In this document: positions 3,942 through 20,083 of the stretch, piece after piece | Position numbering within the stretch: position 1 is the stretch's first letter | Layout of the letters: the number at the start of each line of letters is the position of its first letter | IMG/VR virus record: IMGVR_UViG_3300033553_000108 | Span: 1 to 21,029 of that record | Direction: 5' to 3' (one strand) | Length of the DNA stretch: 21,029 nt | Origin: a virus | Notes under the pieces: generated by a model | Told to the model about the DNA's origin: nothing | The model's input: only the letters and a program-made list of their open reading frames with translations | The model's database searches: none | Program-made: the position numbers and the translations under genes

Positions 3942-4781
3942 TCATTCCCATGGCGCGTCGCCTTCCAAGGCTCGAATCGGGTCCATCTCGATCACTCCAT
4001 CAAGACCGCGGATCCGAAGGAAGCGTGAGCGCTGTCCGGTGCGACGGTTGACCCCCAGGGGGAGACGGACGAGGTTGCCGAGATCCTTGCCTTCCAGCGA
4101 TGACTGCTTGGGAAAGACCTCGATAGTGATGTTCTCGTAGGAGAACTTGTGCTTGAAGAAGTTCTCGCCCCGGCTTGGGGCGAACAGTTCGTGGTGGTTC
4201 AGGGCGCCGAGCGCTAGATCCCGCACCGCAGCAGCGGGCCGGGTGCCGCACAGGCCGTAGACGTGGCAGCCCTTGCCCCCGCTGTCGGTGATCGCCACCG
4301 GAATCCCCAGCGTCTTGTCGATCATGTGGCCCAGGCCAAGCGCCAGCGCGTAGACCTGATGCCTGAAGTACTCGTGGCCAGGGTGCGTCGGGTCGTTCCA
4401 CGCCTCGCGTGGATTGCAGTTGACCCCGCCCTCCATGATCTGGTCGGCCACGCCATCGGTTTCGGACATATCGAGGTAATAGCCCTCTTTGTCCACATCG
4501 ATGTCGAAGAGGAAGAACTTGCAGGTGTCATCGGTGCCGAGGACGTAGTGCCCCAGCGTCAGATCGCCTGCCAAGTGTCGATTGAAGTCGTCCATCGTGA
4601 ACGGCAGGCGCTTGCCATCGGCTTTGCCGGTGTCAGTGGCTGGTCGCCACGCCCCATCCTTCCCCTCGATGGCTTTGACATTCTTCCGACTGATCAGTCG
4701 GCTACCAAGTAGCTTGATAAGCGGCGTATTATCGGTTGAAGAGGCGGACTTGTCCCCGCCTACGGCGTCGAAAAGAGACAC
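3942..4781 (-). CDS. DNA primase, archaeo-eukaryotic (AEP/PrimPol) type
   Basis: A 279-residue protein with the three AEP motifs in order: FLFDIDVD with D93 and D95 (metal-binding); SGGKGCH at 167-173 (nucleotide-binding, the sGxxxH form); and EVFPKQ from E221 followed by KDLGNLVRLPLG (232-243). This arrangement is typical of the PrimPol/TOTE-type primases of mobile elements. It should make primers, possibly also extend DNA, for phage replication. The start is set at GTG 4781, five bases after a GGGAGG site on the minus strand; the open frame runs upstream to 5102 but that part is arginine- and cysteine-rich and has no good start. It is the first gene of a two-gene minus-strand operon with the zinc-finger ATPase downstream. 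Confidence 0.85.
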   Translation of the reverse strand: MSLFDAVGGDKSASSTDNTPLIKLLGSRLISRKNVKAIEGKDGAWRPATDTGKADGKRLPFTMDDFNRHLAGDLTLGHYVLGTDDTCKFFLFDIDVDKEGYYLDMSETDGVADQIMEGGVNCNPREAWNDPTHPGHEYFRHQVYALALGLGHMIDKTLGIPVAITDSGGKGCHVYGLCGTRPAAAVRDLALGALNHHELFAPSRGENFFKHKFSYENITIEVFPKQSSLEGKDLGNLVRLPLGVNRRTGQRSRFLRIRGLDGVIEMDPIRALEGDAPWE

Positions 4782-4974
4782 CGGAACCTCCCATGCTCCG
4801 TGTCGGGTTGGACAGCAACGAGCGTCAGCGCATCGCCAACGAGTAGCGCACGGGAATGTAGCGGACCGGCCACCTGATGTCCACAGACTCGACTCGTGTC
4901 CTAGTAGGGACTCATCCCTGTCGATCCGCACTGGATGCTCGACTTTGCGGTGCTCGTCATGGCACCGTGTCGAC
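4782..4974. promoter_or_regulatory. Divergent intergenic region between replication and packaging operons
   Basis: Genes leave this segment in both directions, so it should hold a promoter on each strand; I see no clear consensus -35/-10 pair. It contains the small dyad AGGGA-CTCA-TCCCT at 4906-4919, which loosely resembles the GGGATG-GTNA-CATCCC family of the first kilobase and could be an operator. A minus-strand frame from GTG 4873 to the stop at 4760-4762 would encode a 37-residue peptide overlapping the primase start. It is not convincing, lacking a ribosome binding site. Confidence 0.45.
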
Positions 4975-6381
4975 GTGCCCGTGGAAGTCTTTGTTCGCAA
5001 CCCTCGGCTTTGCATCAAGGAGTGCCTTGAGGTCGGGGTCGAGAATGTCGCGTGGGATCGCGGGCTGCTTCGGAAGTTCCACGTCGACCCGGTGCGGTTC
5101 ATGAACCTGCACTACGGGGAGACAACGACGTGGCGTTCCTTGAGTATCGGAGATCAGGGCACAACCGAGTACGACCACACGTCTCGTGACCTGTCCGACC
5201 ATCGGGCCTGCTATCCGACGTGGGAGTACGGCGAGGACTTCAAGTCGCTGATCGCGATCATCAATGATCCGGCTGGCGAGAACCCGGACGCCTACTGGTC
5301 CGACGGCGAGGATCCGACGCTGCGCCCTGTGGAGGGCCAGGAGCACAAGATCATCATCACGAAGGTTCCCCCTGCTGGCACGGGTCCGGGCAGGGCCTTC
5401 TATCGGGAGTTGTCGTCGGTTCAGGACGATCATCCCGAGGTGACATTCCACCTTCACGGTCTGTACTCCTACGCCATCCTGTTCGGCCTGTCGTTCCGGT
5501 CGGTCGACATCGAGCCGCGCGACCTGGCGGCGCACGGGCGCATCACGTTCCCCAACGGCAAGAACCTGACCGTGGAGAAGGCTGCGGAATATCCTCAGTG
5601 GATCAAGATGTTGGGGATGCGGCCAGTCGAGTTGAAGATCCCCCGCAACCGGTGCATGTACAACATCCTGTCGGCGGGCTGGGCGGCGAAGCATTTCAAG
5701 GAGACGCCCCGCTTCTCGCTCTCGCGTGCGAAGCCGATCGATCCGGATTCGGCCCTGGCAACCATGCCGACCGATACCCGCATTATGCTCCGGAATGTCA
5801 AGGCACAGTCCCACGACAAGTGGCTGTGCGATTCTTGTAGTCTCCAGTTGGACTGCAAGTACTTCCGCGAAGGAGCCGTGTGCGCCGTGCCCGAGAGTGA
5901 ACCCGTCGAACTAGCCCATTTCTTCAAGACCCGCGACAGCGGGACGATCATCGACGGCCTGTCGACGTTGCTGGCGACCCAGACCCATCGGGTGCATCGC
6001 GCCCTTGAGGTGGAAACGGACACCTACGACGATCCGGAGCGTCCCGGCAGTCTGGACCCGGAACTGACCAAGGTGATCAACGGGATCTTCGATCGTGGCG
6101 TGAAGTTGGCCAAGTTGGTCGACCCGGCTCTGCGCGCCGGCCCCAAGGTGTCGATCAATACCAACTCCAACAATGTCATCGCCGGATCCAGCCCAGCGGC
6201 CCTGATGGCTGCCGTGGTCGAGGAACTGACCTCCCGTGGCGTTCCTAGAGATGAGATCACTCCGGAGATGGTGATGCGTATCGTGTCGTCCCCGGACGAC
6301 ATGCGTTCCCGTGCCATCGACGCCGCTGCAGTCGAGACGACCGACGACGACGACGAGGACGATGACTGGGGCGACGACTGA
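4975..6381 (+). CDS. Unknown phage protein with four-cysteine cluster, upstream of terminase
   Basis: About 468 residues from GTG 4975. The start is uncertain: GTG 4981 and ATG 5101 are alternatives and none has a clear ribosome binding site. Similar-looking protein sequence (from about FVRNPRLCIKECLEVG) extends upstream of ATG 5101, which favours the earlier GTGs. I do not recognise the family. Visible features are a conserved-looking core (about 140-240, with HLHGLYSYAILFG and IPRNRCMYNILSAGWA), a cysteine cluster C285-x2-C288-x5-C294-x8-C303 that probably binds zinc or an Fe-S cluster, and a very acidic C-terminus. It heads the operon containing TerL, the place often held by a small terminase subunit or DNA-recognition protein, so a packaging role is possible, but that rests on position only. 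Its stop overlaps the next start (TGATG). Confidence 0.65.
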   Translation: MPVEVFVRNPRLCIKECLEVGVENVAWDRGLLRKFHVDPVRFMNLHYGETTTWRSLSIGDQGTTEYDHTSRDLSDHRACYPTWEYGEDFKSLIAIINDPAGENPDAYWSDGEDPTLRPVEGQEHKIIITKVPPAGTGPGRAFYRELSSVQDDHPEVTFHLHGLYSYAILFGLSFRSVDIEPRDLAAHGRITFPNGKNLTVEKAAEYPQWIKMLGMRPVELKIPRNRCMYNILSAGWAAKHFKETPRFSLSRAKPIDPDSALATMPTDTRIMLRNVKAQSHDKWLCDSCSLQLDCKYFREGAVCAVPESEPVELAHFFKTRDSGTIIDGLSTLLATQTHRVHRALEVETDTYDDPERPGSLDPELTKVINGIFDRGVKLAKLVDPALRAGPKVSINTNSNNVIAGSSPAALMAAVVEELTSRGVPRDEITPEMVMRIVSSPDDMRSRAIDAAAVETTDDDDEDDDWGDD

Positions 6382-6554
6382 TGGACATCGACTCCAGGGA
6401 ACTCGATGACGTTTACAGCGATGGCCTGATCACGGGCGGGTGTGGAGAAGTTCCTGACCCTCCAATCGTGAGCAAGTACCATCGTTGGGCTTACTCGTCT
6501 GGCTACCTAGCCGGGGTCACGATCAGGAACCAGAAGAAGAACCGCGAATCATGA
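6381..6554 (+). CDS. Small hypothetical protein coupled to terminase
   Basis: A 57-residue ORF whose ATG overlaps the stop of the preceding gene and whose stop overlaps the terminase start (ATGA), so it fills the gap between them exactly. The sequence (starting MDIDSRELDDVYSDGL, ending NQKKNRES) is acidic at the start and basic at the end, with a central aromatic stretch KYHRWAYSSGYLAG. There is no recognisable domain. The double overlap and ordinary composition support translation; the function is unknown. The frame used by the terminase also extends back over this region, but the first methionine of that extension (6485) lacks support. Confidence 0.55.
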   Translation: MDIDSRELDDVYSDGLITGGCGEVPDPPIVSKYHRWAYSSGYLAGVTIRNQKKNRES

Positions 6555-8449
6555 CCGGCTTCCCCGCTTGGGATCCCGATCGGCTCCGCAAGGAACTGAA
6601 GTGGCTGAAGGACAACCCCCACTTCGATGAGCGGCCTGCCAGCATCGAGGAGTTCCTCGGGGAGGAGTACCTGGCGATCGAGGACAAGGTTCGTCCCGCG
6701 ATCATTCAGGAACTGCGGAACATCATGGGCCGCAAGGTCAACCCGTGGCGCATGAGCATCTTCCAGCGGTCGATGATCACGGGCGGCATCGGCATCGGCA
6801 AGACGACCATCGCATCGATCGTGCTGCCGTACCTGGCGCACTGGGTGCTGTGCCTGAAGGATCCCCAGGACTACTTCAACCTGCTTCCCGGCTCCCGCAT
6901 CGCCTTCATGCAGATGTCGACCTCGGGCAGCCAGGCCAAAGAGGTTGTGTTCGGGGACATCAAGGCTCGCATCGAACACTCACTCTGGTTCCAGAACAAG
7001 TATCCTTACGACAGGAACTTCAGGAACCAGTTGCGGTTCGAGAAGGACATCTGGATCCTGCCGGGTGACAGTTCGGAAACCACCTTCGAGGGTTACAACA
7101 TCCTTGGTGGAATCTTGGACGAAGCCGACTCGCACAAAGTAACTAAGAACAAGGACTACGCCGAGCAGGGCTACACGACGATCTATTCTCGTGTGAACTC
7201 CCGCTTCGGTGCGGTCGAGTGCGCCGACGGTGAGACTCGCCAGTTCGGATTCCTGCTGGTCATCGGGCAGATGAAGAAGGGCAACGGGTTCGCCGCCAAG
7301 AAGTACGAGGAGTTCCGGAAGGATCCGGAGGCGTACGCCGTCCGCATGGCCATCTGGGAGTCGTTCGGCTGGTCCCGGTTCACCAAGGAGGACGGGACTC
7401 GCGACTCGTTCTACTACGACCGGAAGCGCTTCGAGATCGTTACAAAGGAAATCGCTGAACTGGTCACAGCCAGCGACAACCTGATCGAGATCCCGAACAA
7501 CTTCAAGCAGGACTTCCTCAACAATCCGGAGAAGGCTCTGCGCGATCTGGCGGGCTTCCCGCCTGCGGTGGGCAGCCCGTTCATCTCGCTCTCCTACAAG
7601 ATCGATGAGGCCCGCGAGGCTTGGCTGGAACGCTTCGGCATGGAGACTGGGCCGGTCGACGGGCGTACAAACACAGTGGCCGACTGGTTCCAGGCCCGCG
7701 ACCCACTGAAGCGTGTCGCTCACATCGACATGGCGGTGTCTGGCGACGGCGACAGCGTGGGCATCGCGATGGGCCACGTGCCCGAGGTCGTGGAGATCGA
7801 CGGGGAGCGGAAGCCCTTCATCGTGATCGACATGATCATGCGTATCCACGCTCCGTCCGGCCAGGAGATCTTCCTGGGCGACGTGCGCCGGATCATCTAC
7901 GACTTGAAGTTCGATCGGCGCTTCAACCTCAAGGTCGCCAACATGGACGGCTTCCAGAGCACCGACACCAAGCAGCAGTTCCAGCGCAAGCGCATCTATT
8001 CGGAAATCGTGTCGGTCGATCGAACCCGCCTGCCCTACGAGGATCTGCGCGAGGCGCTCTACGAGAATCGAATCGCCCTGCCGCCGTACGCCGTCAAGGT
8101 TCGCGCCAGCGACACGGAACTCACAGAGATCGCCGTGAAGGAACTGACTGAGTTGATGGACAACGGCGACAAGATCGACCATCCTCCGGACGGCAGCAAG
8201 GACGTTGCCGACGCTATTGCGGGAGTCACTTATACGCTGATGGGCAACCGCGCCTACCACCGCAAGGTGGTCAGCATGGATCGATTCAAGGAGGAACGGC
8301 AGGAAGCCACCGGCACTGACGGCCCATCGCGAGCGATGACACTCGACCGTGCCATGCAGCATCCAGCCCTGAAGTCACTAGATGGGCTCCGCGCTCCGTC
8401 TGCCCCCACGAGTGGGAGCACCGGATGGAACCCACCACGACGACGGTAG
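6551..8449 (+). CDS. terL: Terminase large subunit
   Basis: A 632-residue DNA-packaging motor. The N-terminal ATPase has a Walker A-like GGIGIGKTT at 78-86 and Walker B ILDEAD at 188-193. The C-terminal RNase H-fold nuclease has candidate metal-binding aspartates at D393 (in HIDMA), D466 (in NMDGF) and D551 or D554 (in DVADAIAG). The enzyme translocates DNA into the prohead through the portal and cuts the concatemer. The ATG at 6551 overlaps the stop of the 57-aa ORF. Length and motif order are usual for the family. The basic, proline-rich C-terminus (about 615-632) may contact the portal. The portal gene follows after 19 bp. Confidence 0.93.
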   Translation: MTGFPAWDPDRLRKELKWLKDNPHFDERPASIEEFLGEEYLAIEDKVRPAIIQELRNIMGRKVNPWRMSIFQRSMITGGIGIGKTTIASIVLPYLAHWVLCLKDPQDYFNLLPGSRIAFMQMSTSGSQAKEVVFGDIKARIEHSLWFQNKYPYDRNFRNQLRFEKDIWILPGDSSETTFEGYNILGGILDEADSHKVTKNKDYAEQGYTTIYSRVNSRFGAVECADGETRQFGFLLVIGQMKKGNGFAAKKYEEFRKDPEAYAVRMAIWESFGWSRFTKEDGTRDSFYYDRKRFEIVTKEIAELVTASDNLIEIPNNFKQDFLNNPEKALRDLAGFPPAVGSPFISLSYKIDEAREAWLERFGMETGPVDGRTNTVADWFQARDPLKRVAHIDMAVSGDGDSVGIAMGHVPEVVEIDGERKPFIVIDMIMRIHAPSGQEIFLGDVRRIIYDLKFDRRFNLKVANMDGFQSTDTKQQFQRKRIYSEIVSVDRTRLPYEDLREALYENRIALPPYAVKVRASDTELTEIAVKELTELMDNGDKIDHPPDGSKDVADAIAGVTYTLMGNRAYHRKVVSMDRFKEERQEATGTDGPSRAMTLDRAMQHPALKSLDGLRAPSAPTSGSTGWNPPRRR

Positions 8450-8468
8450 ACGAGTCTACCGGAGGTAC

Positions 8469-10238
8469 ATGATGGATCAAGTATTCCCCAAGGCGGGCGC
8501 CCAGTTGCTGGGCGCTGACGGTCGTCCGATCTCGTCAGAGACGCAGAGTCACAAGAAGGCGGCACAGCCAGCGACCGGCCCAGCGTTCGGGCAGTGGTCA
8601 GGCCGGGACGTGTCGCTGTACACGATGCCCGGTGGCGGCGTGCTCACCTTCGATCTGTCGGCCCTGACGTTGGCCGACTACCGAGCGATGCGGCACCACC
8701 CGCAGATCAACGCGAGCCTGTCGGTCCTGACCTTCATGATTCACCAAGTGGATTGGCACATCGAGTGCGAAGATCAGGACATCGCGGACTTCGTTGAGAG
8801 CAACATGCGGGACATCTGGACCCGGCTGGTCCGGGCCATGTCGCAGGCGTTCTGGTCTGGTTACTCGCCGTCTGCTCTGGAATACGAGAACGACGTGCAG
8901 AATCGCAAGATCCGGATCTCCAAGGTCAAGGATCTGATCCCCGAGTCGTGTTCGGTGAACTGGAAAGAGGTCAAGGGCGCGCTGCCCCGCAACGCCCCGG
9001 CTGGAGCGATTCCCGAGAAGCATTACATCTACGACGGGATCAAGCAGTTCGGCAGTGCCTACCCCATCCCTCCGGAGAACACGCTGTGGTATCCGGTGCT
9101 GATGGAGAACGGTGACTACTACGGGCGCAACCTGCTCAAGGCAGCGTTCATGCCGTGGTACTTCTCGATCCTGATCCACCTGTTCGCCAACCGGTACTTC
9201 GAACGCTTCGGTGAGCCGATCATCTACGGGCGTGCCCCGTTCGATGAAGAGGTCATCATGCCTGATGGCTCCTCCAAGTCCGGCAAGGAACTGATGGAGG
9301 ATATTCTGGTCAACCTGCGGAACCGGTCGGTGATCACGCTGCCGTCCGATCGTGATCCTGCGGTGACTTCGGCTGGCGCCAACAAGGCTTACATCTACGA
9401 GGTCGATTACCTCGAGTCTCAGATGCGTGGAGCGGACTTCGAGCGGTACATGGAGCGGCTGGACGAAGAAATGTCGCTGGCGCTGTTCACGCCGTTGCTG
9501 CTGATGCGTACGGCGGGCGAAGGTTCGCACAACCTTGGAGTCCAACACACCCAGACCTGGCTCTGGTCGCTCAACGCCATCACGGGCGACATGAAGGAGT
9601 ACATCGATCGCTACATCTGCGAGCGATTGAAGGCGATCAACTACACGCCGAACGCTCCGAAGTGCGAGTGGGTGCCCCATCCGATGGGCAAGCACTCCAC
9701 AGAGACGCTGCGGGCAGTCATCACGGAGTTGATCCGCCAGAACAAGGTCGCCCCTGCCGATCTCGATGAACTCGGCACGGCCCTTGGGTTGTCGCTGAAG
9801 GAGATCAAGGAGGTCACAGAGGAACCGGCGACCGACTCTGCAGACGACGACTCCGGTGACTCTGATGTGGACGACCGGCAGCGTACGGAGCGGGATCGTT
9901 CCCGATCTGGGCCGCGTGGTGTGGGCGAGCCGCGTGCGACCGGCACGGAGATCGCAGCCCGAATCAAGGGGCAGAGCGAGAAGGCGTTCCGTCAGGGTCG
10001 CTTCGGTCCCGACTTCAAGCCGACGATGGGGTACCGCCGCCGTTTCGAGCAGTCCCTGATCAGCGAGGGCTTCACTGAAGAAGAAGCGGCAGAGCGCACT
10101 GCGAAGTTCTACTCGGCCATGGATAAGTGGCTCGAGATAGCAGTCAGCCTCGGCTCAGATGAATACACTGGCCACGCCGACTTCATCTCCATGTTCCAGA
10201 GACGACTCGACAGCGAGATCGAATCGCTCAAGAGTTGA
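8469..10238 (+). CDS. Portal protein
   Basis: About 589 residues. The segment MRHHPQINASLSVLTFMIHQ followed by a WHIECED stretch, and the long helical core, match the portal fold; it looks closest to the DUF935/Mu gp29-like group. The dodecameric portal forms the head vertex through which TerL pumps DNA and to which connector proteins bind. A GGAGG site at 8461-8465 serves ATG 8469 or, with better spacing, ATG 8472; the open frame reaches 8382 but overlaps terL without a site. After a low-complexity acidic then arginine-rich linker (about 460-505), the last 85 residues form a separate helical region, possibly a clip or wing extension. It directly follows terL, as expected. Confidence 0.88.
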   Translation: MMDQVFPKAGAQLLGADGRPISSETQSHKKAAQPATGPAFGQWSGRDVSLYTMPGGGVLTFDLSALTLADYRAMRHHPQINASLSVLTFMIHQVDWHIECEDQDIADFVESNMRDIWTRLVRAMSQAFWSGYSPSALEYENDVQNRKIRISKVKDLIPESCSVNWKEVKGALPRNAPAGAIPEKHYIYDGIKQFGSAYPIPPENTLWYPVLMENGDYYGRNLLKAAFMPWYFSILIHLFANRYFERFGEPIIYGRAPFDEEVIMPDGSSKSGKELMEDILVNLRNRSVITLPSDRDPAVTSAGANKAYIYEVDYLESQMRGADFERYMERLDEEMSLALFTPLLLMRTAGEGSHNLGVQHTQTWLWSLNAITGDMKEYIDRYICERLKAINYTPNAPKCEWVPHPMGKHSTETLRAVITELIRQNKVAPADLDELGTALGLSLKEIKEVTEEPATDSADDDSGDSDVDDRQRTERDRSRSGPRGVGEPRATGTEIAARIKGQSEKAFRQGRFGPDFKPTMGYRRRFEQSLISEGFTEEEAAERTAKFYSAMDKWLEIAVSLGSDEYTGHADFISMFQRRLDSEIESLKS

Positions 10239-10267: not shown

Positions 10268-10693
10268 ATGGCGAACACCAAGATCGATCACGCAGCCGCT
10301 GCCGCAGCACTGGATGCCATCGTCGACACCCTCGATGCTGGCGCTGGCGCTGGCTACATCGAAATCCGCGTCGGCGCCCCGCCCGCTTCGGTTGAGGACG
10401 CCGCGACTGGCACGCTTCTCGGCACCCTGACCTGCTCCGACCCGGCCTTCGGCGCCGCCACCACCGCGGATCCGTCCGTGGCCACAGCGGGCGCCATCAC
10501 CGACGACACGAACGCTGATGCGTCCGGGGTTGCCGGTTGGTTCCGGGCTTACGACTCCACTGCGGTGGCCCGCATCCAGGGTGACATCTCGACCGTCGCT
10601 GCGGGTACCGGCGACCTCCAGTTGGACGACACCAACATCGTCGCTGGCGGCACGATCTCCGTGACCGGCTGGACGATCAGCCACCCCGCCTGA
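10268..10693 (+). CDS. Putative virion structural protein (small, Ala/Gly/Thr-rich)
   Basis: A 141-residue protein beginning MANTKIDHAAAAAALDAIVD, then a Thr/Gly/Ala-rich beta-type sequence with GTLLGTLTCSDPAFGAAT and GTISVTGWTI near the end. Similar small proteins with a short N-terminal helix and beta-rich body are common in phage structural modules, often with no assigned function. It lies between the portal gene and the repeat-fibre cassette, so it may be a neck, head-vertex or fibre-attachment protein. The ATG at 10268 has AAAGGA about 10 nt upstream. Identity as a virion protein is inferred from context and composition. Confidence 0.65.
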   Translation: MANTKIDHAAAAAALDAIVDTLDAGAGAGYIEIRVGAPPASVEDAATGTLLGTLTCSDPAFGAATTADPSVATAGAITDDTNADASGVAGWFRAYDSTAVARIQGDISTVAAGTGDLQLDDTNIVAGGTISVTGWTISHPA

Positions 10694-10745: not shown

Positions 10746-11234
10746 GTGGCAGCCACGTTCGGTGTTGCAGGCGTTGGCTTCGGCGCCCCTGGCGGTACGT
10801 TCGGTAATCTCGTACCGACCTTCGTTGGCACCGCCTCCCAGTCGGTCAGCGGAATCTCCCAGTCCGCGACCGGCACGATCGCAGATCCGGTCTACTCGGG
10901 CCAGATCGCCCAGTCGGTGGCCTCGGTTGGTCAGGACGCCACCGGCACCTTCCGCAACTTCCGTGGGCCGATCGTCCAGACGCTGGCGCCGGTCAGCCAG
11001 GACGCGACCGGCACGGCGGCCGATCCGGTCTGGTCAGGTTCGGCTTCACAGGTTCTTCAGCCTGTATCGCAGGATGCAAGTGGTGTTTCTTATCCGAACC
11101 AGTTCATGTATCCGAACGCCGATCTGGTGATCACGGGCTGGACGGATCAAACGGGTGGCACCACGAACTTGTGGGCGGCGATCGATGAAGAGATCCCCAG
11201 CGATGCCGACTACATCGAGGCGGTGCTGGTGTGA
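10746..11234 (+). CDS. Short repeat-containing fibre-like protein
   Basis: A 162-residue protein from GTG 10746 (GGAGG at 10731-10735). After a Gly-rich N-terminus it carries about four copies (residues 29-117) of the 24-residue repeat shared with the two large proteins downstream, with core IxQSVxxVxQxATGT. Its last 45 residues (from about MYPNADLVITGWTDQ to IEAVLV) resemble the beginning of a beta-sandwich module of phage fibre proteins, but the protein stops there. It may thus be a natural short form or a truncated paralogue. Its stop overlaps the next start (GTGA). Likely an elongated virion appendage component; the receptor or partner is unknown. Confidence 0.7.
   Translation: MAATFGVAGVGFGAPGGTFGNLVPTFVGTASQSVSGISQSATGTIADPVYSGQIAQSVASVGQDATGTFRNFRGPIVQTLAPVSQDATGTAADPVWSGSASQVLQPVSQDASGVSYPNQFMYPNADLVITGWTDQTGGTTNLWAAIDEEIPSDADYIEAVLV
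10830..11096 (+). repeat. About 4 copies of the 24-residue (72-bp) coding repeat
   Basis: The first and shortest block of the repeat family, inside the 162-aa protein. The units share an IxQ(S/T)xxxVxQ(S/D)A(T/S)G core with the larger blocks at 12013-12429 and 13427-16399. Two of the four units lack the PV(Y/W)SG ending. Confidence 0.8.
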
Positions 11235-11500
11235 GCGTCTGTCAAGGCAACGGTTCTGACCACTGCTGCTACGTGAACGGCGAGGTCTGTCTCTTCCTTG
11301 AGGAGAACACGATTCCCGGTCGGCGGTGGGCCTGCGGCCTGTTGCGCGAACTTGGCACTTGGCAAGCCGTGCACGCTGACCCCGGATACCAAGAGCATGT
11401 GCAGTCGGTCTGGGATCAGGTCGGCATCGAGTCCTGTGGCGCTTGGGGGCCAGGCTCCGATCAATGCTGCTTCAGTGAGACAACGGTAGGGGTAACCTGA
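11231..11500 (+). CDS. Small cysteine-rich protein within the fibre cassette
   Basis: An 89-residue protein from GTG 11231, overlapping the preceding stop and, through TGATG, the next start. It has eight cysteines, at about C4, C12, C13, C20, C35, C69, C79 and C80, with the segments CCYVNGEVC, IPGRRWACGLLRELGTW and SCGAWGPGSDQCC. No signal peptide is visible. The cysteine spacing suggests a small metal-binding or disulfide-stabilised fold. Its coupling on both sides to repeat-fibre genes suggests it helps assemble them or is a virion part. I do not recognise a functional family. Confidence 0.7.
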   Translation: MSVCQGNGSDHCCYVNGEVCLFLEENTIPGRRWACGLLRELGTWQAVHADPGYQEHVQSVWDQVGIESCGAWGPGSDQCCFSETTVGVT

Positions 11501-12633
11501 TGCCTGCTTTGCCCACGCTGCGCCCGACATCCTTCGTCTCGGGCACGCTCATCGGCACGTCGACCGTCGGCAACGTCAACGACAACAACGACGCCACGTT
11601 CATCGAGTCGGCTTCGGGTAACGGTGTCGACGGTCAGTGGATCTACGAGATCACCGACATGCCCGCCGACTTTGCGTCGATGGACTTGGCGCAGGTCACC
11701 CTGACGATCCGGGCTCAACTGTCGGCTACGGGAGACGACACCTGGCGGGTCCGCGGTGAGTTGACCGACGCAGCGGGTGTGGCCGTTTCCAACGTTCCGG
11801 CCTACGTCAACCTGGCCAACAACACCACGGTCCAGGAGTTCACGTTCGTCCTGACCATGACGGGCACGAACGCCAAGGCTCAGTGGAACGCGGTCAAGCT
11901 CCTCCTCGACTACCAGAACGTCAAGAACATGGCTGCGGACGGCAACGTCGTCCGCATCACCGACGCCTGGCTGACGGGCACCTACACCGCTGCATCTTCC
12001 AACCGCACTGGCTCGATCGCCCAGTCGGTTTCGGGTGTCAGTCAAAGCGCGACGGGCACGGTTGCTGATCCGGTCTACTCCGGTGCGGCCACACAGTCCC
12101 TTCAGCCGGTAAGTCAGGCCGCTACGGGCACGGCGGCGGGGCCGTCCTTCGATGGCCCGATCGATCAGACGCTGGCCCCGGTCGCGCAGGCGGCGACCGG
12201 CACTCACGTCGCTCCGTTGTTCTCGGGTGCGATCTCCCACTCGGTCGCCGGGGTCACGCAGTCGGCAGCGGGCACGGTTCGGAACCAGCAGGGGCCGATC
12301 GTCCAGACCCTGCAGCCGGTCACCCAGGCGGCGACGGGCACCTACGTTGAGCCGACCGACGCCGGTCCGATCGCTCAGACCCTGGAGCCGGTCACGCAGT
12401 CGGCAACAGGCACACACTCGGCGCCAGCCGTCGCGACTCCGTCGAACCTTGTGGCCACCGCTGTCGGCGGGGATCGCATCGACCTCACCTGGGACGCCGT
12501 GGCGGGGGTGGACGGCTACGACATCGAGCGTGACTCGGTGATCATCGAATGGAACCACCCGGTGAACAGTTACTCCGATACTCCGCTTTCGGCTTCGACT
12601 GAGTACTCTTATCGAGTCCGAGCGGTGGTTTGA
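11500..12633 (+). CDS. Fibre-like protein: beta-sandwich, six repeats, fibronectin III domain
   Basis: A 377-residue protein. Residues about 20-165 look like a jelly-roll/carbohydrate-binding-type beta sandwich and are paralogous to the N-terminal domain of the 1314-aa protein downstream (shared QW, NMA-DG and GTY landmarks). Residues 172-310 hold about six of the 24-residue repeats. Residues 313-377 are a fibronectin type III domain, with TPSNLVATAVGGDRIDLTW, GYDIERD and STEYSYRVRAV. Such architectures belong to phage surface appendages that touch the host or decorate the virion. It has no catalytic motif. The ATG overlaps the previous stop, and the next gene starts one base after its own stop, so translation is coupled. 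Confidence 0.78.
   Translation: MPALPTLRPTSFVSGTLIGTSTVGNVNDNNDATFIESASGNGVDGQWIYEITDMPADFASMDLAQVTLTIRAQLSATGDDTWRVRGELTDAAGVAVSNVPAYVNLANNTTVQEFTFVLTMTGTNAKAQWNAVKLLLDYQNVKNMAADGNVVRITDAWLTGTYTAASSNRTGSIAQSVSGVSQSATGTVADPVYSGAATQSLQPVSQAATGTAAGPSFDGPIDQTLAPVAQAATGTHVAPLFSGAISHSVAGVTQSAAGTVRNQQGPIVQTLQPVTQAATGTYVEPTDAGPIAQTLEPVTQSATGTHSAPAVATPSNLVATAVGGDRIDLTWDAVAGVDGYDIERDSVIIEWNHPVNSYSDTPLSASTEYSYRVRAVV
12013..12429 (+). repeat. About 6 copies of the 24-residue coding repeat
   Basis: The second block of the family, within the 377-aa protein, between its beta-sandwich and fibronectin domains. The unit core is IxQ(S/T)LxPV(T/A/S)QxATGT, ending in a variable PVYSG-like segment. Confidence 0.85.
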
Positions 12634-12634
12634 T

Positions 12635-15600
12635 GTGGCTGACCTGACCCCACTTTCGCCAGCGGCGCCACTGGACGCGTCGGACAACTCGTACCTCACC
12701 TTCACGGCGAGCACGACTGAAGTAGCAACATCACCTCTGGCCAACGTCCCGGCCGACTTCTTGTCGATGAGCACGCTGACCTGGCAGGTCGAGTCGTCCA
12801 TCACGCTCGCGGGCACGGACGACACCTACGACCTGGCGATCCGACTCATGGACGGCGCCACGGTCCTCGCTGCTGCCGACGCTGGCGGCACGTTCGCCGC
12901 TGTTCGTTCCTTGTCGGGCGCGCCGACGATGGATGTCGTCACTGGTCCGACAGGGTTTGCTTATGTGAACACTTCGGCAACCAAGACGCAGTGGGACAAC
13001 GCCTCGGTCGAGTTGCAGCAGACGCATGGCCAGAACATGGCAGGGGATGGCGCTGCCATCCGCGTCGACCACGTGGTCATCGACGGCACTTACGTCGGGC
13101 TTGTCGAAACCCCGGTGGCCAGGTTCGCGCTGACCGATCCCGGTCCCGTCGTGGCCGGGACGCGCACGATCCGCTACCGCGCCGCGATGATCGGCAACGC
13201 AGGCACGATGACGGTGGCCCTGCATGAGTCGGGCGGCGCCCTGGTTCAGTCGTGGACCGAGAATGTCGATGGAACGCCGACGACGTTTGAGCACGAGATC
13301 ACGAACTCCGTCTCGGACTACAACGGACTCGAACTGCGAGTCAGCGGCACGGGCATTGCGGGATCTTCTCTTCGTCTCTACCAGGCCGAACTGAAGGTAC
13401 CTGGCGAGATCGACCTTGGCGTTTCTGGGTCCATCGAGCAGAGCCTCCAGCCGGTCACTCAGTCGGCCTCGGGTGCGTTCACGGCGCCGGTCTACGAGGG
13501 CGACATCGCTCAGGGCCTGCAGCCGGTCACGCAGTCCGCATCTGGTGCGTTCGCGGCTCCGGTTTATGAAGGCGACATCGATCAGACCCTGCAGCCGGTG
13601 TCGCAGTTGGCAACTGGCGAGACGGTTTCGGTGTTCACCGGGTCGGCTTCACAGACACTTGAGCCGGTCACGCAGTCTGCTTCGGGATCAAAGACCAACC
13701 CGGTCTACACGGGCAGCATCGACCAGGGACTCCAGCCTGTCACGCAGGAAGTCGATGGCTCTTACTTCCGACTGACTTCACAGTGGGCCGGTCCAGTCTC
13801 AGCGACAACCGCTGGCACCTACACGGCCGAGATTGACCAGTCGGTCGCCGCTGTCGCTCAGTCTGCTTCTGGAACCTTCAAGGCAGTCTTTGCGGGCGAG
13901 ATCGACCAGAGCCTCCAGCCGGTCAGTCAGGACGCAACCGGCACAGTGATCGCGCCGGTCTTCGCGGGCGAGATCACGCAGGGCCTCCAGTCGGTCAGCC
14001 AGGACGCGACCGGCACGGCGGCGGCGCCGGTCTACGCGGGCGAGATCACGCAGGGCCTCCAGTCGATAAGCCAGTCGGCTACGGGGTCGACGGGCGTGCC
14101 TGTCTCGGCGGGCACGATCGTCCAGAGCCTGGCAGCGGTCACACAGTCGGCTACTGGAGTCCACGACGATCCAGACTTCATTGGTTCTGCTTCACAGACC
14201 CTTCAGCCGGTCGATCAGAGCGCGACGGGCACTTCGGCACCGCCCACCTGGGCGGGCGACATCGACCAGAGCCTGCAGCCGGTTACGCAGTCCGCTGTCG
14301 GCAAGGTTCCCGACATCGGGGTCATCGACCAGACCCTGGCGCCGGTCACGCAGTCCGCAACCGGTACGCACGCGGCCCCGGTCTACGCGGGCGTCATCAA
14401 TCAGAGCCTCCAGGCGATCAGCCAGGCCGCGGTCGGTGCCGTCGAGGTGCCGGTCTACGCGGGCGCCATCGACCAGGGCCTCCGGCCGGTCAGTCAGGCA
14501 GCGACCGGGGCGAACGTCAAGCCGGTCGATCAGGGTGCGATCATCCAGCACCTCCAGCCAGTCACGCAGAGTGCAAGCGGCTCTTTCTTCCGCCTCGTGT
14601 CGGCGTGGACGGCCCCGGCTTCGGCCACGACGGCGGGCACGCTATCAGGAACCATTGATCAGGATCTCCAGCCGGTCAGCCAGGCGGCGACCGGTGCAGT
14701 CAGCCCCCCGGTCTACTCGGGCGCCATCGACCAGACGCTTGCTGCAGTAGAGCAGGCGGCGACCGGCACGGCGGAAGCGCCAGTTCTCGCAGGCTCGATC
14801 GCGCAGACGTTGGCGGCGGTCACGCAGGCCGCGACCGGCACGACCACGGCGCCCGTCTACGCGGGCGCCATCGACCAGAGCCTCCAGCCCGTCACGCAGG
14901 ACGCCACCGGGGTCATCGCGGACCCGGTGGTCGCGGGCGCCATCGACCAGAGCCTCCAGCCGGTCAGTCAGAGCGCTACAGGCAAGGTTCCGGACACGGG
15001 CGCCATTGCCCAGTCCCTCCAGCCAGTCAGTCAGAGCGCCACCGGCACGGTTGCCGATCCGGTCTACGCGGGCGAGATCACGCAGAGCCTCCAGCCGGTG
15101 ACGCAAGGCGCCACCGGCACGGTTGGCGATCCGGTCCGGGCGGGCGACATCGCTCAGGAACTCCAAGCGGTCAGCCAGAGCGCCACGGGCACGCAGACCA
15201 AGCCGGTCGATGAAGGTGCGATCACCCAGCACCTTCAGCCGGTCAGTCAGGACGCGACCGGCACAGTCACGACGCCGGTCCTCGCTGGCTCCATCTCGCA
15301 AACGCTCCAGCCAGTTAGTCAGGACGCAACCGGCACGGTCGCTGATCCGATCTACGCGGGTGCGATCACCCAGAGTCTCCAGCCGGTCAGCCAGGACGCG
15401 ACCGGCTCGACGGCAACCCCGGTCCTCGCTGGCACCATTTCCCAGACCCTCCAGCCGGTCACGCAGGCGGCGACCGGCAAGGTCCACGACACCGGGTCGA
15501 TCGATCAGAGCCTCCAGCCGGTTACGCAGTCGGCCACCGGCACGGTCACGGCACCGATCTACAGCGGCTCCATCTCGCAGAGCCTGCAGCCGGTCACCCA

Positions 15601-16579
15601 GGACGCGACCGGCAAGGTTCACGACGCAGGCGAGATTCTCCAGAGCCTCCAGCCGGTTACGCAGTTCGCAACCGGCACCGTCACGGCGCCCGTCCTCGCT
15701 GGCACGATCGATCAGACGCTCCAGCCGGTAAGCCAGAGCCTTACTGGCACCTGGCAGGATCCGGTCGATTCCGGGTCCATCAACCAGACCCTTCAGCCGG
15801 TCACGCAGTCGGCAACGGGCACGGTGGTCGATCCGGTCGACTCCGGGGCCATCGTCCAGACACTCGCTTCGGTCAGCCAAGAAGCGACCGGCACAGTCAC
15901 TGCGCCGGTCGATGCGGGCGAGATCGCCCAGACCCTGATCCCGGTCACGCAGGCCGCGACGGGCGCCGTCACGGTCCCGGTCTACGCGGGCACGGTCAGC
16001 CAGACGCTGTCCCCGGTCACCCAGAGCGCCACCGGTACACACAGAGCCGCAGCGGCGGGCACGATCGCCCAGACGCTGGCCCCGGTCACGCAGGCGGCGA
16101 CGGGCACCCAGGTTCGTCCGGTCGACGCAGGCGCCATCAGTCAGTTCTTGGCGCCGATCTCCCAGAGTGCAACCGGTAGCGCAGCACCTCCGGTGTTCCC
16201 TGGCGTGGCCTCTCAGAGTCTCCAGCCGATCACGCAGTCGGCGTCGGGCACGGTCGCCCTGCCGACGTACCGAATGGTCATTGACCAGACGCTGGCGCCG
16301 GTCACACAGGACGCTTCGGGCGTCACGACGCGACCGATCTTCACGGGCGCCGCCATTCAGGTCTTGGCTGCCGTCACCCAGGCAATGGGGGGTGCTTCCG
16401 GTCGAGAGGTCTTGATCTGGATCTACGGCACGATCAGCGCCGAATCCCTGGTCGGCTCCATTCCAGAGCCTACGATCCTGCGTGGAGTGATTGACGAGGA
16501 TGAGATCGGGAGCGGTATTCTCTCTGAAGCCCTCATCGGCTCTACCACTCGACAGACCCTTACTGGAGAGATCTCCTAA
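12635..16579 (+). CDS. Giant repeat fibre protein, about 41 tandem 24-residue repeats
   Basis: A 1314-residue protein from GTG 12635, one base after the previous stop. Residues 1-155 are a beta-sandwich paralogous to the N-terminus of the 377-aa protein. Residues about 157-256 form a second beta-sandwich (RTIRYRAAMIGNAGTMTVAL, then SDYNGLELRVSG). Residues about 265-1255 are about 41 units with core I-x-Q-(S/T)-L-Q-P-V-(T/S)-Q-x-A-T-G-T and an ending like PVYAG. Residues 1256-1314 are a distinct C-terminal cap with looser I-x-G/L-x-G-x-I periodicity. The regular alternation of hydrophobic and Thr/Ser/Gln residues suggests a beta-solenoid or stacked beta-hairpin shaft. There are no cysteines, signal peptide or membrane segments. 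Probable role: a long virion fibre or whisker; a tape measure is less likely because it is beta- and not helix-rich. Confidence 0.8.
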   Translation: MADLTPLSPAAPLDASDNSYLTFTASTTEVATSPLANVPADFLSMSTLTWQVESSITLAGTDDTYDLAIRLMDGATVLAAADAGGTFAAVRSLSGAPTMDVVTGPTGFAYVNTSATKTQWDNASVELQQTHGQNMAGDGAAIRVDHVVIDGTYVGLVETPVARFALTDPGPVVAGTRTIRYRAAMIGNAGTMTVALHESGGALVQSWTENVDGTPTTFEHEITNSVSDYNGLELRVSGTGIAGSSLRLYQAELKVPGEIDLGVSGSIEQSLQPVTQSASGAFTAPVYEGDIAQGLQPVTQSASGAFAAPVYEGDIDQTLQPVSQLATGETVSVFTGSASQTLEPVTQSASGSKTNPVYTGSIDQGLQPVTQEVDGSYFRLTSQWAGPVSATTAGTYTAEIDQSVAAVAQSASGTFKAVFAGEIDQSLQPVSQDATGTVIAPVFAGEITQGLQSVSQDATGTAAAPVYAGEITQGLQSISQSATGSTGVPVSAGTIVQSLAAVTQSATGVHDDPDFIGSASQTLQPVDQSATGTSAPPTWAGDIDQSLQPVTQSAVGKVPDIGVIDQTLAPVTQSATGTHAAPVYAGVINQSLQAISQAAVGAVEVPVYAGAIDQGLRPVSQAATGANVKPVDQGAIIQHLQPVTQSASGSFFRLVSAWTAPASATTAGTLSGTIDQDLQPVSQAATGAVSPPVYSGAIDQTLAAVEQAATGTAEAPVLAGSIAQTLAAVTQAATGTTTAPVYAGAIDQSLQPVTQDATGVIADPVVAGAIDQSLQPVSQSATGKVPDTGAIAQSLQPVSQSATGTVADPVYAGEITQSLQPVTQGATGTVGDPVRAGDIAQELQAVSQSATGTQTKPVDEGAITQHLQPVSQDATGTVTTPVLAGSISQTLQPVSQDATGTVADPIYAGAITQSLQPVSQDATGSTATPVLAGTISQTLQPVTQAATGKVHDTGSIDQSLQPVTQSATGTVTAPIYSGSISQSLQPVTQDATGKVHDAGEILQSLQPVTQFATGTVTAPVLAGTIDQTLQPVSQSLTGTWQDPVDSGSINQTLQPVTQSATGTVVDPVDSGAIVQTLASVSQEATGTVTAPVDAGEIAQTLIPVTQAATGAVTVPVYAGTVSQTLSPVTQSATGTHRAAAAGTIAQTLAPVTQAATGTQVRPVDAGAISQFLAPISQSATGSAAPPVFPGVASQSLQPITQSASGTVALPTYRMVIDQTLAPVTQDASGVTTRPIFTGAAIQVLAAVTQAMGGASGREVLIWIYGTISAESLVGSIPEPTILRGVIDEDEIGSGILSEALIGSTTRQTLTGEIS
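13427..16399 (+). repeat. About 41 tandem copies of a 72-bp coding repeat
   Basis: Nearly all units encode 23-24 residues. Four are short (21 residues) and share a K-V-(P/H)-D-x-G ending, near 14300-14322, 14980-15003, 15478-15500 and 15612-15633. Two units carry the same longer insertion, (Y/F)FRLxSxW then P-x-SATTAGT, near 13753-13823 and 14575-14650. Synonymous and amino acid differences between units are common, so the array is old or under diversifying turnover and not a recent amplification. Confidence 0.92.
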
Positions 16580-16875
16580 TGAAGATCACAGCACTGGAGC
16601 AATCCACGGTCGAGGAGATCATTCGAGGGTGGGACATCGCCCCCACGGTCCCGACGACGATGACCTTCTACGCCAAGTCCCGCGATGGCGACATCACCAC
16701 GTGGACACAGGCATCCGGCGTCACGAACAACGACGACGGGACTGGCACGTGGAAGATCGAGGTCGATGACCTGCCGCCAGGCTCCTACACGTGGTGGGCC
16801 ATCGCTGATCTCGGCGTCAATGGCCTCAAGATTCCGACAGAGATGGAAGGCCCACTGGAGATTCGGGAACGATGA
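16579..16875 (+). CDS. Small Ig-like structural protein
   Basis: A 98-residue protein whose ATG overlaps the stop of the giant fibre gene (TAATG). Alternating strands (TTMTFYAKSRDGD, GTGTWKIEVDDLPPGSYTWW, PTEMEGPLEI) suggest an immunoglobulin-like beta-sandwich of the type found in phage head and tail accessory proteins. There is no catalytic motif. Coupling to the fibre gene suggests a partner or cap for the fibre, or a capsid-surface protein. Its stop overlaps the next start (ATGA). Confidence 0.65.
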   Translation: MKITALEQSTVEEIIRGWDIAPTVPTTMTFYAKSRDGDITTWTQASGVTNNDDGTGTWKIEVDDLPPGSYTWWAIADLGVNGLKIPTEMEGPLEIRER

Positions 16876-17141
16876 AGTCTGACGCGATCGACGTTCGCTG
16901 CTTCTGCAGAAACGAGCCATTGATCGCTGTCGCGGGCCGCGATGCCCGGTCTGGTGAGCCTTTCGTGCATATCAAGTCATGGAAGGGTGATCGACTGAAT
17001 GCCGAGGCTGTCGTTACGGCCGGAACGGTGCGGATTCGGTGCCGCGTCTGTATGCGCTGGCATCGCCTGACGATCGTGGATGTGGTCGAAAGCGCTCAGG
17101 AACCTCTACCGGTGGGCATCAAGTCAGCCATCTCGGCGTAA
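16872..17141 (+). CDS. Zinc-ribbon protein (Com-like)
   Basis: An 89-residue protein with a two-knuckle cysteine arrangement: C10 and C12 (VRCFCRNEPL), then C57 and C60 (IRCRVCMRWH), with FVHIKSWKGDRLNAEA between them. The layout resembles the small Com-type zinc ribbons of phages; in phage Mu, Com is a translational activator that binds mRNA. Here it lies between structural genes, so it may be an RNA-binding regulator or a small structural zinc protein. The ATG overlaps the preceding stop. The first knuckle is CxC and not CxxC, which is unusual, and H64 may contribute a ligand. Confidence 0.6.
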   Translation: MKSDAIDVRCFCRNEPLIAVAGRDARSGEPFVHIKSWKGDRLNAEAVVTAGTVRIRCRVCMRWHRLTIVDVVESAQEPLPVGIKSAISA

Positions 17142-17152
17142 AAGATGACGAG

Positions 17153-18442
17153 ATGATTGCTTTGAGGTGCACTGGCGCTGGTACTTTGCTGCCCGTGAAT
17201 GAGAAGTCTCCAGACCTCAGCACCTTCGGTGCCGTGATGACCGCACCCCGGATCGTCTCTTCTGGATCATTCTTCTCAACCCCCACGACCCGTCAAACGG
17301 ACAAGGGTACGCACATCATCGAGGGCCTCCGCATCTTCAAGGCGGCTACCTTCGCTGACTCCATGGGGATCGTTCGGACCTGGGAAGAAAGTCATCTCGA
17401 GCAGATGGCCTTCCACTTCCGGCTCCTCCGTGACGCTGGGACATTCCCCAACGTCCCGGTCCGTGTGGATCATTCATTCTCGGCGCAGAACGTCATCGGC
17501 TACCTCGTGGACGTGTACCGCGACCGCGAGGATTCGATGTTCCTGTCCGCAGACATCGAGATCACTGAGCCTGACGCCTACGAAAAGTGGGAGCGCGGTA
17601 CCTACCGTTCTCGTTCTCTAGAGGTCGGCATGTATGAGACAAATGACGAAGCGGCCTACTGGCCCGTCGTCATGGGTCTTGCCTTCGTGGACATCCCGGC
17701 TGTTGAGGGCCTGCACGCCAAGGGCCGTACGGCACCTCCGAACCCGTCCGAGGACGGGAAGGGTCGTGCGAACTTCAACTTCTCGCAGACGCTGAAGGAC
17801 GACGACAAGGAGACGAAAGTGGACGAAGAAGAGTTCCTCGCAGCGTGCGCCTACGCCGCATGGGTCGAAGCAGCCGAGTACGCCCAGCGTGCTGACGACT
17901 GGATCCGTGCCGCCGACTACGCCGCCGCCCTCGATGCCCATCAGGAGCAGGCACAGGCCCTCGGTCTGACCGCCAACCACGGTCGCCTCCCTGCCGCCAC
18001 GTTCCGCGTGGGTGGCCAGGAGGTCAGCGACACGGCCCAGGTGCAGCAGCACATCACGGCACTGGAAACCTTCCAGTCGGAGACAATCTCCACTGGTCGC
18101 TCCGACTTCGTGAACGATCTGGCCTCTGACGGTCGCATCGCTGCAACCCAGGTCGACTCCATGCAGGCGCTCGTCGCCACCATGAACGACACCCAGTTCG
18201 AAGCATTCAAGGGCACCTACGAGGGTGCCCCCACCAACAGCCTCTTCGGACAGTACGGCCAGAACCACGGTGGGGGCGGTCAGCCGCCCGCAGGCAACGA
18301 TGGTGCGGTCGATATCAGCGAGGTCGACACCCTCGAAGAGATCGTCGCCAACCACCGTCGCACCGGCAAGTCCCAGGAGCAGATCGAGAAGCTGGATAGC
18401 TTCAAGAAGCTCCAGCAACTCAAGCAGGCCCAGGGCCAGTAG
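17153..18442 (+). CDS. Prohead protease with C-terminal scaffold region
   Basis: About 429 residues from ATG 17153; other possible starts are GTG 17195 and ATG 17237, none with a strong ribosome binding site. Residues about 45-190 look like a capsid maturation protease: VPVRVDHS with H107, YRSRSLEVGM with S153 or S155 as candidate nucleophile, and GLAFVDIPAVEGL with D180. After a charged linker, residues about 230-429 are Ala/Gln/Glu-rich and helical, ending EKLDSFKKLQQLKQAQGQ, as expected of an internal scaffold. A protease-scaffold fusion directly before decoration and capsid genes is a common phage arrangement. The assignment of catalytic residues is tentative. Confidence 0.72.
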   Translation: MIALRCTGAGTLLPVNEKSPDLSTFGAVMTAPRIVSSGSFFSTPTTRQTDKGTHIIEGLRIFKAATFADSMGIVRTWEESHLEQMAFHFRLLRDAGTFPNVPVRVDHSFSAQNVIGYLVDVYRDREDSMFLSADIEITEPDAYEKWERGTYRSRSLEVGMYETNDEAAYWPVVMGLAFVDIPAVEGLHAKGRTAPPNPSEDGKGRANFNFSQTLKDDDKETKVDEEEFLAACAYAAWVEAAEYAQRADDWIRAADYAAALDAHQEQAQALGLTANHGRLPAATFRVGGQEVSDTAQVQQHITALETFQSETISTGRSDFVNDLASDGRIAATQVDSMQALVATMNDTQFEAFKGTYEGAPTNSLFGQYGQNHGGGGQPPAGNDGAVDISEVDTLEEIVANHRRTGKSQEQIEKLDSFKKLQQLKQAQGQ

Positions 18443-18454
18443 GAGGAAATCCAG

Positions 18455-18904
18455 ATGCCCCACTTCGATGCAGGCGGTGCTGCCCGGACTCCGTTCGGGA
18501 AGAACCAGTACCTCCGCTCCACGCAGGACATCAAGGTCGAGTCGTACACGTTCGCCAAGGACGGTATCCCGACCGAGACGATCGACGGCGATACCCAGAA
18601 GGTGCTCCAGCCCGGAACCGTGATCGCCAAGATCACCTCCGGTGCCGATTCGGGCAAGGTCGGCGTGTTCCAGGCCGGTGTGACGGACGGTCGTCAGACC
18701 TCCGCCAACATCGTCGGCGTGGTCGACACCTTCCTTCCCTGGCAGCTTCTCGAGCGTGATGTCGAAGTCGGCGTCACGTACGAGGCCGCCGTCAAGGAAG
18801 CCTGGTGCTTCGAGTACGACGGCGCTGGCGCTCGTGTCGCCCTGACCACCATCACCCGCGACGCGATCCTCGCCCTCGACGGCGTGGCGCTGCTGTTCAA
18901 GTAG
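18455..18904 (+). CDS. Head decoration protein (lambda gpD-like)
   Basis: A 149-residue protein with the feature order of the phage head decoration family: a flexible N-terminus, then VLQPGTVIAKITSG, then TDGRQTSANIVGVV, and a beta-rich C-terminus. It should bind the expanded capsid shell at the three-fold sites and stabilise it. A very strong AGGAGG site overlaps the stop of the protease gene, about 9 nt before ATG 18455, consistent with a highly expressed virion protein. The major capsid gene follows after 12 bp. Confidence 0.82.
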   Translation: MPHFDAGGAARTPFGKNQYLRSTQDIKVESYTFAKDGIPTETIDGDTQKVLQPGTVIAKITSGADSGKVGVFQAGVTDGRQTSANIVGVVDTFLPWQLLERDVEVGVTYEAAVKEAWCFEYDGAGARVALTTITRDAILALDGVALLFK

Positions 18905-18916
18905 GAGGAGTTCAAG

Positions 18917-20083
18917 ATGCCATTCCCGGCTCAGGACCGGCTCATTCGCAAGGAGGTTGCCCTTGGCACCCTTCGCGAACTCGAGCCTCCCAAGACCCAC
19001 ATCGGCACGCGGGTTCTCGCCCCGTTCCAAGAGGTCGCCACCGACGACGTGATCTTCGACTACGCGAAGGGTCTGACCGATGGTCTGGCCCCGGCCCGTG
19101 CCGAGGACGCCGAGTCCGAACTCGCACAGAAGGATCTCGCCTACGGCGGGGTCGGTCGAGCCGCCGTGCTCGACTGGGCGCTGAAGGACCACTACGTGGC
19201 CTCCGATGTGACCCGCTACCGCGAGGCGCTCCTCATCCAGGCCCGTGTTTCCGGTGACAACTCGATCAACCTCCCGCTGTCGGTGGGCAACATGGTCGAG
19301 GACTTCCGGGGCAAGGTCGCCCGTGACGACGCCCTTCGGCGTCGTAAGCTCGACAACCGGATCGAGTGGATGATCACGCAGGCCCTGGAGACGGGTGGCA
19401 TCACCTACGACGACGGGAAGATCAAGTTCACCGTCGACTTCGGTCGCCCCGGTGGCCAGTCCAACCAGGCCCCCGCTGGCGGTCTGTGGTCGGCCACCAC
19501 GTCCGATCCGATCGGTGACATCCTCGCCATGCAGGAGTTCATGTACGACACCTACGGTGTCCGCATGACTCGGGCAATCACGTCCCGCAAGGTGCTCAAC
19601 GCCATCCTCAACTCGGACCGGTTCGCCGCCCGATCTGGCATGGCGGTCGGCGGCTACGCCGTGACGGCTGGCGACACCGAGGTCAGTGGCACGGCCATCG
19701 ATCCCCGGTACCTGATCGACGGCTGGGGGCCTTCTGCGGCACAGGCCGTGCTGGAGCGTGCCACCAACGTCCAGTTCATCGAGTACGACTCGGTGTACCG
19801 GACCCGAGCGGTTGGCACCAACACGGTCGTCAACAACCGATTCCTGTCGGACAACAAGATCTTCTTCCTGCCGGACGCCGACGACGTGTCCGAACTGGAC
19901 GACGCGCTTGGGTTCGGCAAGACGCTGACCTCGCCCCACCCCGAGGGCAACTGGCAGGCCGGTTACTACGAGTGGGAGGTCGAGACGAAGGATCCTTGGG
20001 GCACTACCCGAGGAACCGGCATCAAGGCCTTCCCGGTGTTCCCGCACATGGATCTCACCTACACCATGTCGGCGCTGGCCTAG
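18917..20083 (+). CDS. Major capsid protein (lambda gpE family)
   Basis: A 388-residue protein resembling the phage capsid E family (HK97 fold). The landmarks are LAPFQEVATDDVIFDYAKG near the start, a helical spine around residues 125-160, the segment GGITYDDGKIKFTVDFGRP, and a C-terminal stretch with KTLTSPHPEGNWQAGYYEWE. It forms the icosahedral shell. A strong AGGAGG site lies about 7 nt before ATG 18917. It follows the decoration gene, as in lambda-like modules, and a terminator hairpin follows its stop, so its transcript can be separated from downstream genes. Confidence 0.9.
   Translation: MPFPAQDRLIRKEVALGTLRELEPPKTHIGTRVLAPFQEVATDDVIFDYAKGLTDGLAPARAEDAESELAQKDLAYGGVGRAAVLDWALKDHYVASDVTRYREALLIQARVSGDNSINLPLSVGNMVEDFRGKVARDDALRRRKLDNRIEWMITQALETGGITYDDGKIKFTVDFGRPGGQSNQAPAGGLWSATTSDPIGDILAMQEFMYDTYGVRMTRAITSRKVLNAILNSDRFAARSGMAVGGYAVTAGDTEVSGTAIDPRYLIDGWGPSAAQAVLERATNVQFIEYDSVYRTRAVGTNTVVNNRFLSDNKIFFLPDADDVSELDDALGFGKTLTSPHPEGNWQAGYYEWEVETKDPWGTTRGTGIKAFPVFPHMDLTYTMSALA

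Follow-up and report, generated by a model that had tools for sequence, protein, structure and literature searches.

A tandem-repeat gene cassette beside a garland-type protein gene in a tailed phage: a candidate beads-on-a-string appendage

Genomic context of the repeat cassette

The window, that is, the whole stretch of 21,029 bases analysed here, is a complete IMG/VR record and represents a portion of a tailed-phage genome. It contains a terminase gene (6485-8449), a Mu-type portal gene (8382..10238, plus strand; phrog_113 E 2.3e-74, Portal_Mu) and, further along the plus strand, genes for a head maturation protease (17039..18442; phrog_976 E 6.7e-38), a head decoration protein (18455..18904; phrog_5455 E 3.4e-49) and a major capsid protein of the Phage_cap_E family (18917..20083; PF03864 E 1.5e-14, phrog_29), which is about 51% identical to those of Gordonia phages such as MrWormie. 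Two long open reading frames on the minus strand (1766-3937 and 3942-5102) are positioned like the MrWormie primase and helicase genes to the left of the terminase. A search of the window for tRNAs and RNA families found none.

Between the portal and protease genes, all on the plus strand, lie three genes that share one 24-residue repeat: A162 (10746..11234, GTG start), a short string with four repeats and a C-terminal half of a sandwich-like module; B377 (11500..12633, ATG start), with an N-terminal jelly roll, six repeats and a C-terminal fibronectin III domain; and C1314 (12635..16579, GTG start), a long string with two N-terminal sandwich domains, 41 repeats and a C-terminal cap. An earlier note on this DNA described three genes in a row; the three repeat genes are present, but an 89-codon frame (11231..11500, GTG start), which contains Cys and overlaps the A162 stop and the B377 start, stands between the first two, and this frame may be a real small gene. 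The cassette extends beyond the repeat genes, taking in g141 upstream (10268..10693; phrog_3758 'virion structural protein', E 9.7e-27), a candidate bead protein predicted to have a garland/whisker fold, and g98 downstream (16579..16875), an Ig-like small protein and putative adaptor that closes the cassette. Its left edge is the portal gene and its right edge is g89 (16872..17141), a small protein gene that directly follows the portal gene in relatives lacking the cassette.

Most capsid-gene relatives in IMG/VR, including L003 with a 75% identical capsid protein, have the portal gene directly before g89 and/or the protease gene, and MrWormie carries in the same slot a single gene for a 742-aa 'minor tail protein'; the cassette of about 6 kb is therefore an insertion at a variable site. 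No g141-family gene was present among the capsid-relative loci, and a scan of 12 fuller capsid-relative records, run without a positive control, returned none. Two capsid relatives encode tandem-repeat proteins of their own, with repeats of 20-22 residues, downstream of the capsid gene (L024:5833-8079 and L044:14735-16363); no g141-family gene was found near them in the stretch covered, which in L024 excludes the upstream slot.

The slot itself has a counterpart in Shigella phage Sf14, whose gene order, TerL, portal, gp30, gp31, protease, decoration and Phage_cap_E capsid, is that of the window, so that the cassette and the Sf14 whisker genes both lie between portal and protease. In Sf14 the gp30 chain threads through the neck whiskers (PMC11821841).

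Layout and age of the repeat array

Motif counting gives four copies in A162, six in B377 and 41 in C1314, exactly 51 in all, which confirms the approximate counts of the earlier note; the open reading frames also lie where it placed them. The repeat core reads I-x-Q-[ST]-L-[QA]-P-[VI]-[ST]-Q-[SAD]-A-[TS]-G and consists of two short segments of alternating pattern, IxQxL and VxQxATG, with a proline turn between them and a variable PVYAG-like linker behind. Q10 and G14 occur in 51/51 copies, as the counting motif itself demands, Q3 is kept in 50/51, and A12 varies in three. Most copies are 24 residues long; variants of 21 residues (PVY deleted, three linker residues missing) and of 22/23 residues occur, and two C1314 copies carry a 14-residue insert. 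Self-similarity of C1314 at period 24 is far above chance (z ~270 against shuffles).

The array is old and maintained at the protein level, and not the product of a recent DNA expansion, because in 40% of cases residues that are identical across copies have different codons, and the mean core identity between copies is only 67% for DNA and 66% for protein. Relatives of C1314 were found neither in IMG/VR nor among phage records by tblastn, where the BLAST low-complexity filter may mask the repeats. A search of solved structures likewise gave no match for C1314, nor for the string protein of another locus, L098.

Domains flanking the repeats

The fibronectin III domain that the earlier note had recognized is borne out by Pfam at the C-terminus of B377, where fn3 barely passes its threshold (25.3 bits vs a cut-off of 25.0). 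For the N-terminal domain of B377 the prediction is a jelly roll of moderate confidence (pLDDT about 60-76), and comparison of the model with known structures finds resemblance to sugar-binding modules (Fbs1, CBM22, CBM15 and a TNF-like lectin); as a query, the same domain retrieved no relatives. The first N-terminal domain of C1314 aligns with it.

The C-terminal 48 residues of A162 look like a sandwich domain cut off abruptly after its first half, possibly a truncated module. The idea that A162 and B377 are mere truncated copies of C1314 is not favoured, because the flanking domains differ in each protein.

g141 belongs to a family with a garland/whisker-type fold

The earlier note overlooked g141, which stands just upstream of the repeat genes; in dozens of phages, members of its family are found together with repeats of this kind. 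The family, represented by a full-length alignment of 21 members, belongs to phrog_3758, and g141 matches over residues 10-136 a solved chain from Agrobacterium phage 7-7-1, PDB 9RKV_A, in an entry described as 'tail fibers' (E 2.7e-9; profile E 2.8e-19). The matched sequence is identical to 7-7-1_00103, which by gene numbering and length should be the garland protein gp014. The garland protein gp127 of Agrobacterium phage Milano is among the DNA-level matches of g141. A second solved relative of g141 is PDB 44nx_B (profile E 1.2e-8), and its other chains may reveal the partner of the bead.

A likely fold for g141 comes from a model of its family member in L099, whose bead was predicted by AlphaFold at pLDDT 91-97. 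Foldseek ranks 9RKV_A first for this model (E 3.9e-6), followed at prob 1.0 by the Bas63 connector and by neck chains of Sf14; the matched Sf14 chain, 9c39_K, is the whisker protein gp31. Similarity to A511 gp105 (6hhk) is weak, with prob 0.28 at best. These comparisons suggest that g141 has a bead fold of the garland/whisker class. Its likeness to the Sf14 whisker is one of fold and gene place without a sequence relation: hhalign of the g141 family against gp31 and gp30, each as a single sequence, gave probabilities of 0.7% and 0.2%.

Bead genes and tandem-repeat proteins occur together across phages

Relatives of g141 were retrieved without using the repeats, and a repeat detector was then applied to their neighbours. 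A protein with tandem repeats of 19-26 residues lies within 4.5 kb in 24/30 non-redundant g141 loci with enough flanking sequence in IMG/VR, compared with 3/35 control loci, all drawn from one phage group, the capsid-gene relatives (p = 4e-9). Antisense shadow frames account for 3 of the 24 matches at g141 loci and 1 of the 3 in controls, and their exclusion leaves 21/30 vs 2/35; at 6/30 g141 loci the detector found no repeat protein. The neighbouring proteins contain up to ~60 copies of 20-24-residue repeats, such as GSAALVAGEATLSASATFTAPVYT in L074 and ITGSGTPAAQASTVAGTAERS in L098, and many of the repeat sequences are unrelated to one another, having only length and pattern in common. In L074 an intein that contains a LAGLIDADG homing endonuclease domain splits the terminase (8116-10221).

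The association also holds in reverse. A scan using the repeat pattern alone led to g141 on 8/11 new contigs against 0/44 controls (p = 1.4e-7), or 7/10 with two similar contigs counted as one (p = 6.8e-7), and L062, likewise retrieved through its repeat, also carries g141. Repeat length, 24 vs 21-22 residues, clusters on the bead tree, with three changes where 6.6 are expected and 0/500 shuffles as low. Such clustering would follow from a mutual fit of bead and repeat, or from simple joint inheritance, and linkage alone could account for both the association and the co-clustering.

Several cultured phages have the same pairing, since 7-7-1, Milano, Atu_ph07, RHEph12 and Seuss each possess a garland-type gene with repeat proteins nearby. 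Mass spectrometry of 7-7-1 identified gp103, gp106, gp107 and gp108 as virion proteins, so that garland proteins and the repeat protein gp108 are both present in the particle (PMC3517404); gp106, judging from its size, is probably a second garland-type protein. In the same phage gp107 (L064:9385-10893), a 52-kDa protein, was most abundant in the first gel slice, slice 1, whereas the peak of a 61-kDa protein fell in slice 4 (PMC3517404), and this gel position may reflect an SDS-resistant or cross-linked assembly.

Discussion

The gene slot, the bead family and the repeats together are consistent with g141, A162, B377, C1314 and g98 forming a beads-on-a-string filament, most likely a whisker on the neck of a tailed phage resembling those of Gordonia, a reading to which we give somewhat better than an even chance. 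In such a filament, g141 would make garland/whisker-type dimers that serve as the beads, and each 24-residue repeat would be a short two-strand peptide (IxQxL, proline turn, VxQxATG) clasped by a bead; we infer that bead and repeat touch, with one repeat held per bead or per dimer. C1314 could then be loaded with up to ~41 beads, B377 with six and A162 with four. In this flexible necklace, the number of repeats would determine the length. If each bead is assumed to occupy 3-5 nm, 41 of them would span an estimated 120-200 nm. The jelly rolls and the fibronectin III domain may form carbohydrate- or surface-binding tips with weak binding to surface glycans, which would make the appendage adhesive, and g98 may be the adaptor that fastens the filament to the virion.

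The known systems nearest to this arrangement each share part of it. The Sf14 whisker (gp30, gp31, PDB 9C39) is like the window in gene slot, surrounding gene order and, by Foldseek, bead fold; it differs in that gp30 has 166 aa, one gp31 dimer sits on each whisker and no sequence relation was detected, and inspection of gp30 by eye noticed no tandem repeat. Milano (gp125, gp127) and 7-7-1 (gp014) offer the complementary likeness, with proteins related in sequence to g141 and short-repeat proteins encoded near the garland genes. In these two phages, however, the garland rings the baseplate, whereas the window gene follows the portal in a relative of Gordonia phages, and the repeat proteins of the window are much longer. 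The Milano authors liken the garland to the beads on a string of A511 and T4 but regard its own 'string' as unclear (PMC10811340). In A511 gp105 and T4 gp8, as described there, an extended baseplate-wedge chain runs across dimers, as proposed here, but each chain carries only three beads and tandem repeats are not mentioned (PMC10811340).

The main alternative, which we regard as unlikely though deserving of the closest comparison, is that the repeats fold on themselves into a beta-solenoid or a shaft of stacked hairpins, with g141 a co-transferred neighbour, for instance a baseplate or whisker protein encoded beside a fibre. The earlier note had proposed such a mechanism, with each repeat a hairpin, the largest protein a solenoid shaft and the two shorter ones its bases or tips. 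Regular repeats with conserved glycine and proline at the turns are compatible with it, and the monomer models of consecutive repeats do show two strands per repeat in both B377 (19-row alignment) and L099, the latter reaching pLDDT 60-68 without an alignment. Confidence in B377 is only 40-47, however, so that neither model amounts to a confident regular repeat fold, and Foldseek of the modelled repeat parts matched no known shaft; the solenoid, and with it the roles of base and tip, is left unsupported. A self-folded shaft would also leave unexplained the two-way link to one bead family across unrelated phages and the many unrelated repeat sequences that have only length and pattern in common. 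Modelling gave no confident bead-repeat contact either: in L099 the bead and the string are natural same-frame neighbours, and the pair, modelled as a single readthrough chain with stop codons read as Gly, reached pTM 0.42.

It is still less probable that A162, B377 and C1314 serve as flexible adhesins at the surface, in which disordered repeats act as spacers, holding the jelly-roll and fibronectin III domains off the particle without any beads. The sugar-binding resemblance of the B377 jelly roll, the presence of fibronectin III and the low confidence of the predicted repeats would all suit such adhesins; the strong conservation of Q3, L5, Q10, A12 and G14 over 51 copies despite diverged codons points instead to a specific structural role, and the tight link to the g141 family also speaks against a plain spacer. 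A capsid-surface or capsid-vertex fibre in place of a neck whisker is very improbable: the vertices of 7-7-1 bear flexible fibres not yet assigned to a protein (PMC12796354), and its virion includes repeat proteins as well as proteins of the garland type, yet the window slot matches that of the Sf14 neck whiskers, the structural 7-7-1 garland sits at the baseplate, and Milano, with the same genes, is reported without thread-like tail filaments and, in the portion of its description considered here, without capsid fibres.

As to where the beads-on-a-string filament would be attached, the neck is the most likely place for the window cassette, because its slot equals that of the Sf14 whisker. The position of g98 suggests an adaptor, a role in keeping with the gene that follows the string in two other loci, which matches PF23148, the fiber-tail adaptor gp77 of podophage GP4, above the Pfam cut-off in L116 and weakly in L062. 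The window g98 itself matched no protein family, PF23148 included, and as a query it retrieved one doubtful locus. The string is followed by a head-tail adaptor gene in L102 and by a connector gene in L051; L078 also has a connector as neighbour, and its string itself terminates in a tail-terminator domain, while the L081 cassette is placed after the tape-measure and minor tail genes. Given these adaptor and connector genes after the string in some loci and the tail genes before the cassette in L081, the module seems to occupy a neck position in some phages and a tail-tip position in others. The tail position in L081 and the baseplate garlands of 7-7-1 and Milano count against a fixed neck location, and the location may vary. 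The suggestion of the earlier note that these genes encode a head, neck or tail appendage fits both the neck-whisker slot and the presence of homologous neighbours among virion proteins.

It is tempting to extend the proposal beyond the window, and we put its chances at somewhat below even: in many unrelated tailed phages, members of a single bead family with the garland/whisker fold may be strung on tandem repeats of 21-24 residues to build a common modular appendage, and the repeat number would set how many beads are loaded and hence how long the flexible filament becomes. The 7-7-1 and Milano repeat proteins would then be the 'string' of the garland, and filaments of this type may account for flexible fibres that in some phages have no assigned protein. 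The earlier note knew of no described phage organelle with this composition; that appears to hold for the recurring module of bead plus multi-repeat string in the literature searched, although the bead half is familiar from the Milano and 7-7-1 garlands and the Sf14 whiskers, whose folds are already known. If the proposal is true, it would explain what a large class of phage repeat proteins, so far without annotation, does, and flexible appendages would have a simple genetic ruler that sets their length. In published structures the garland and whisker beads are visible and the string of the garland is not, and the pairing of bead and repeat genes offers a candidate for it.
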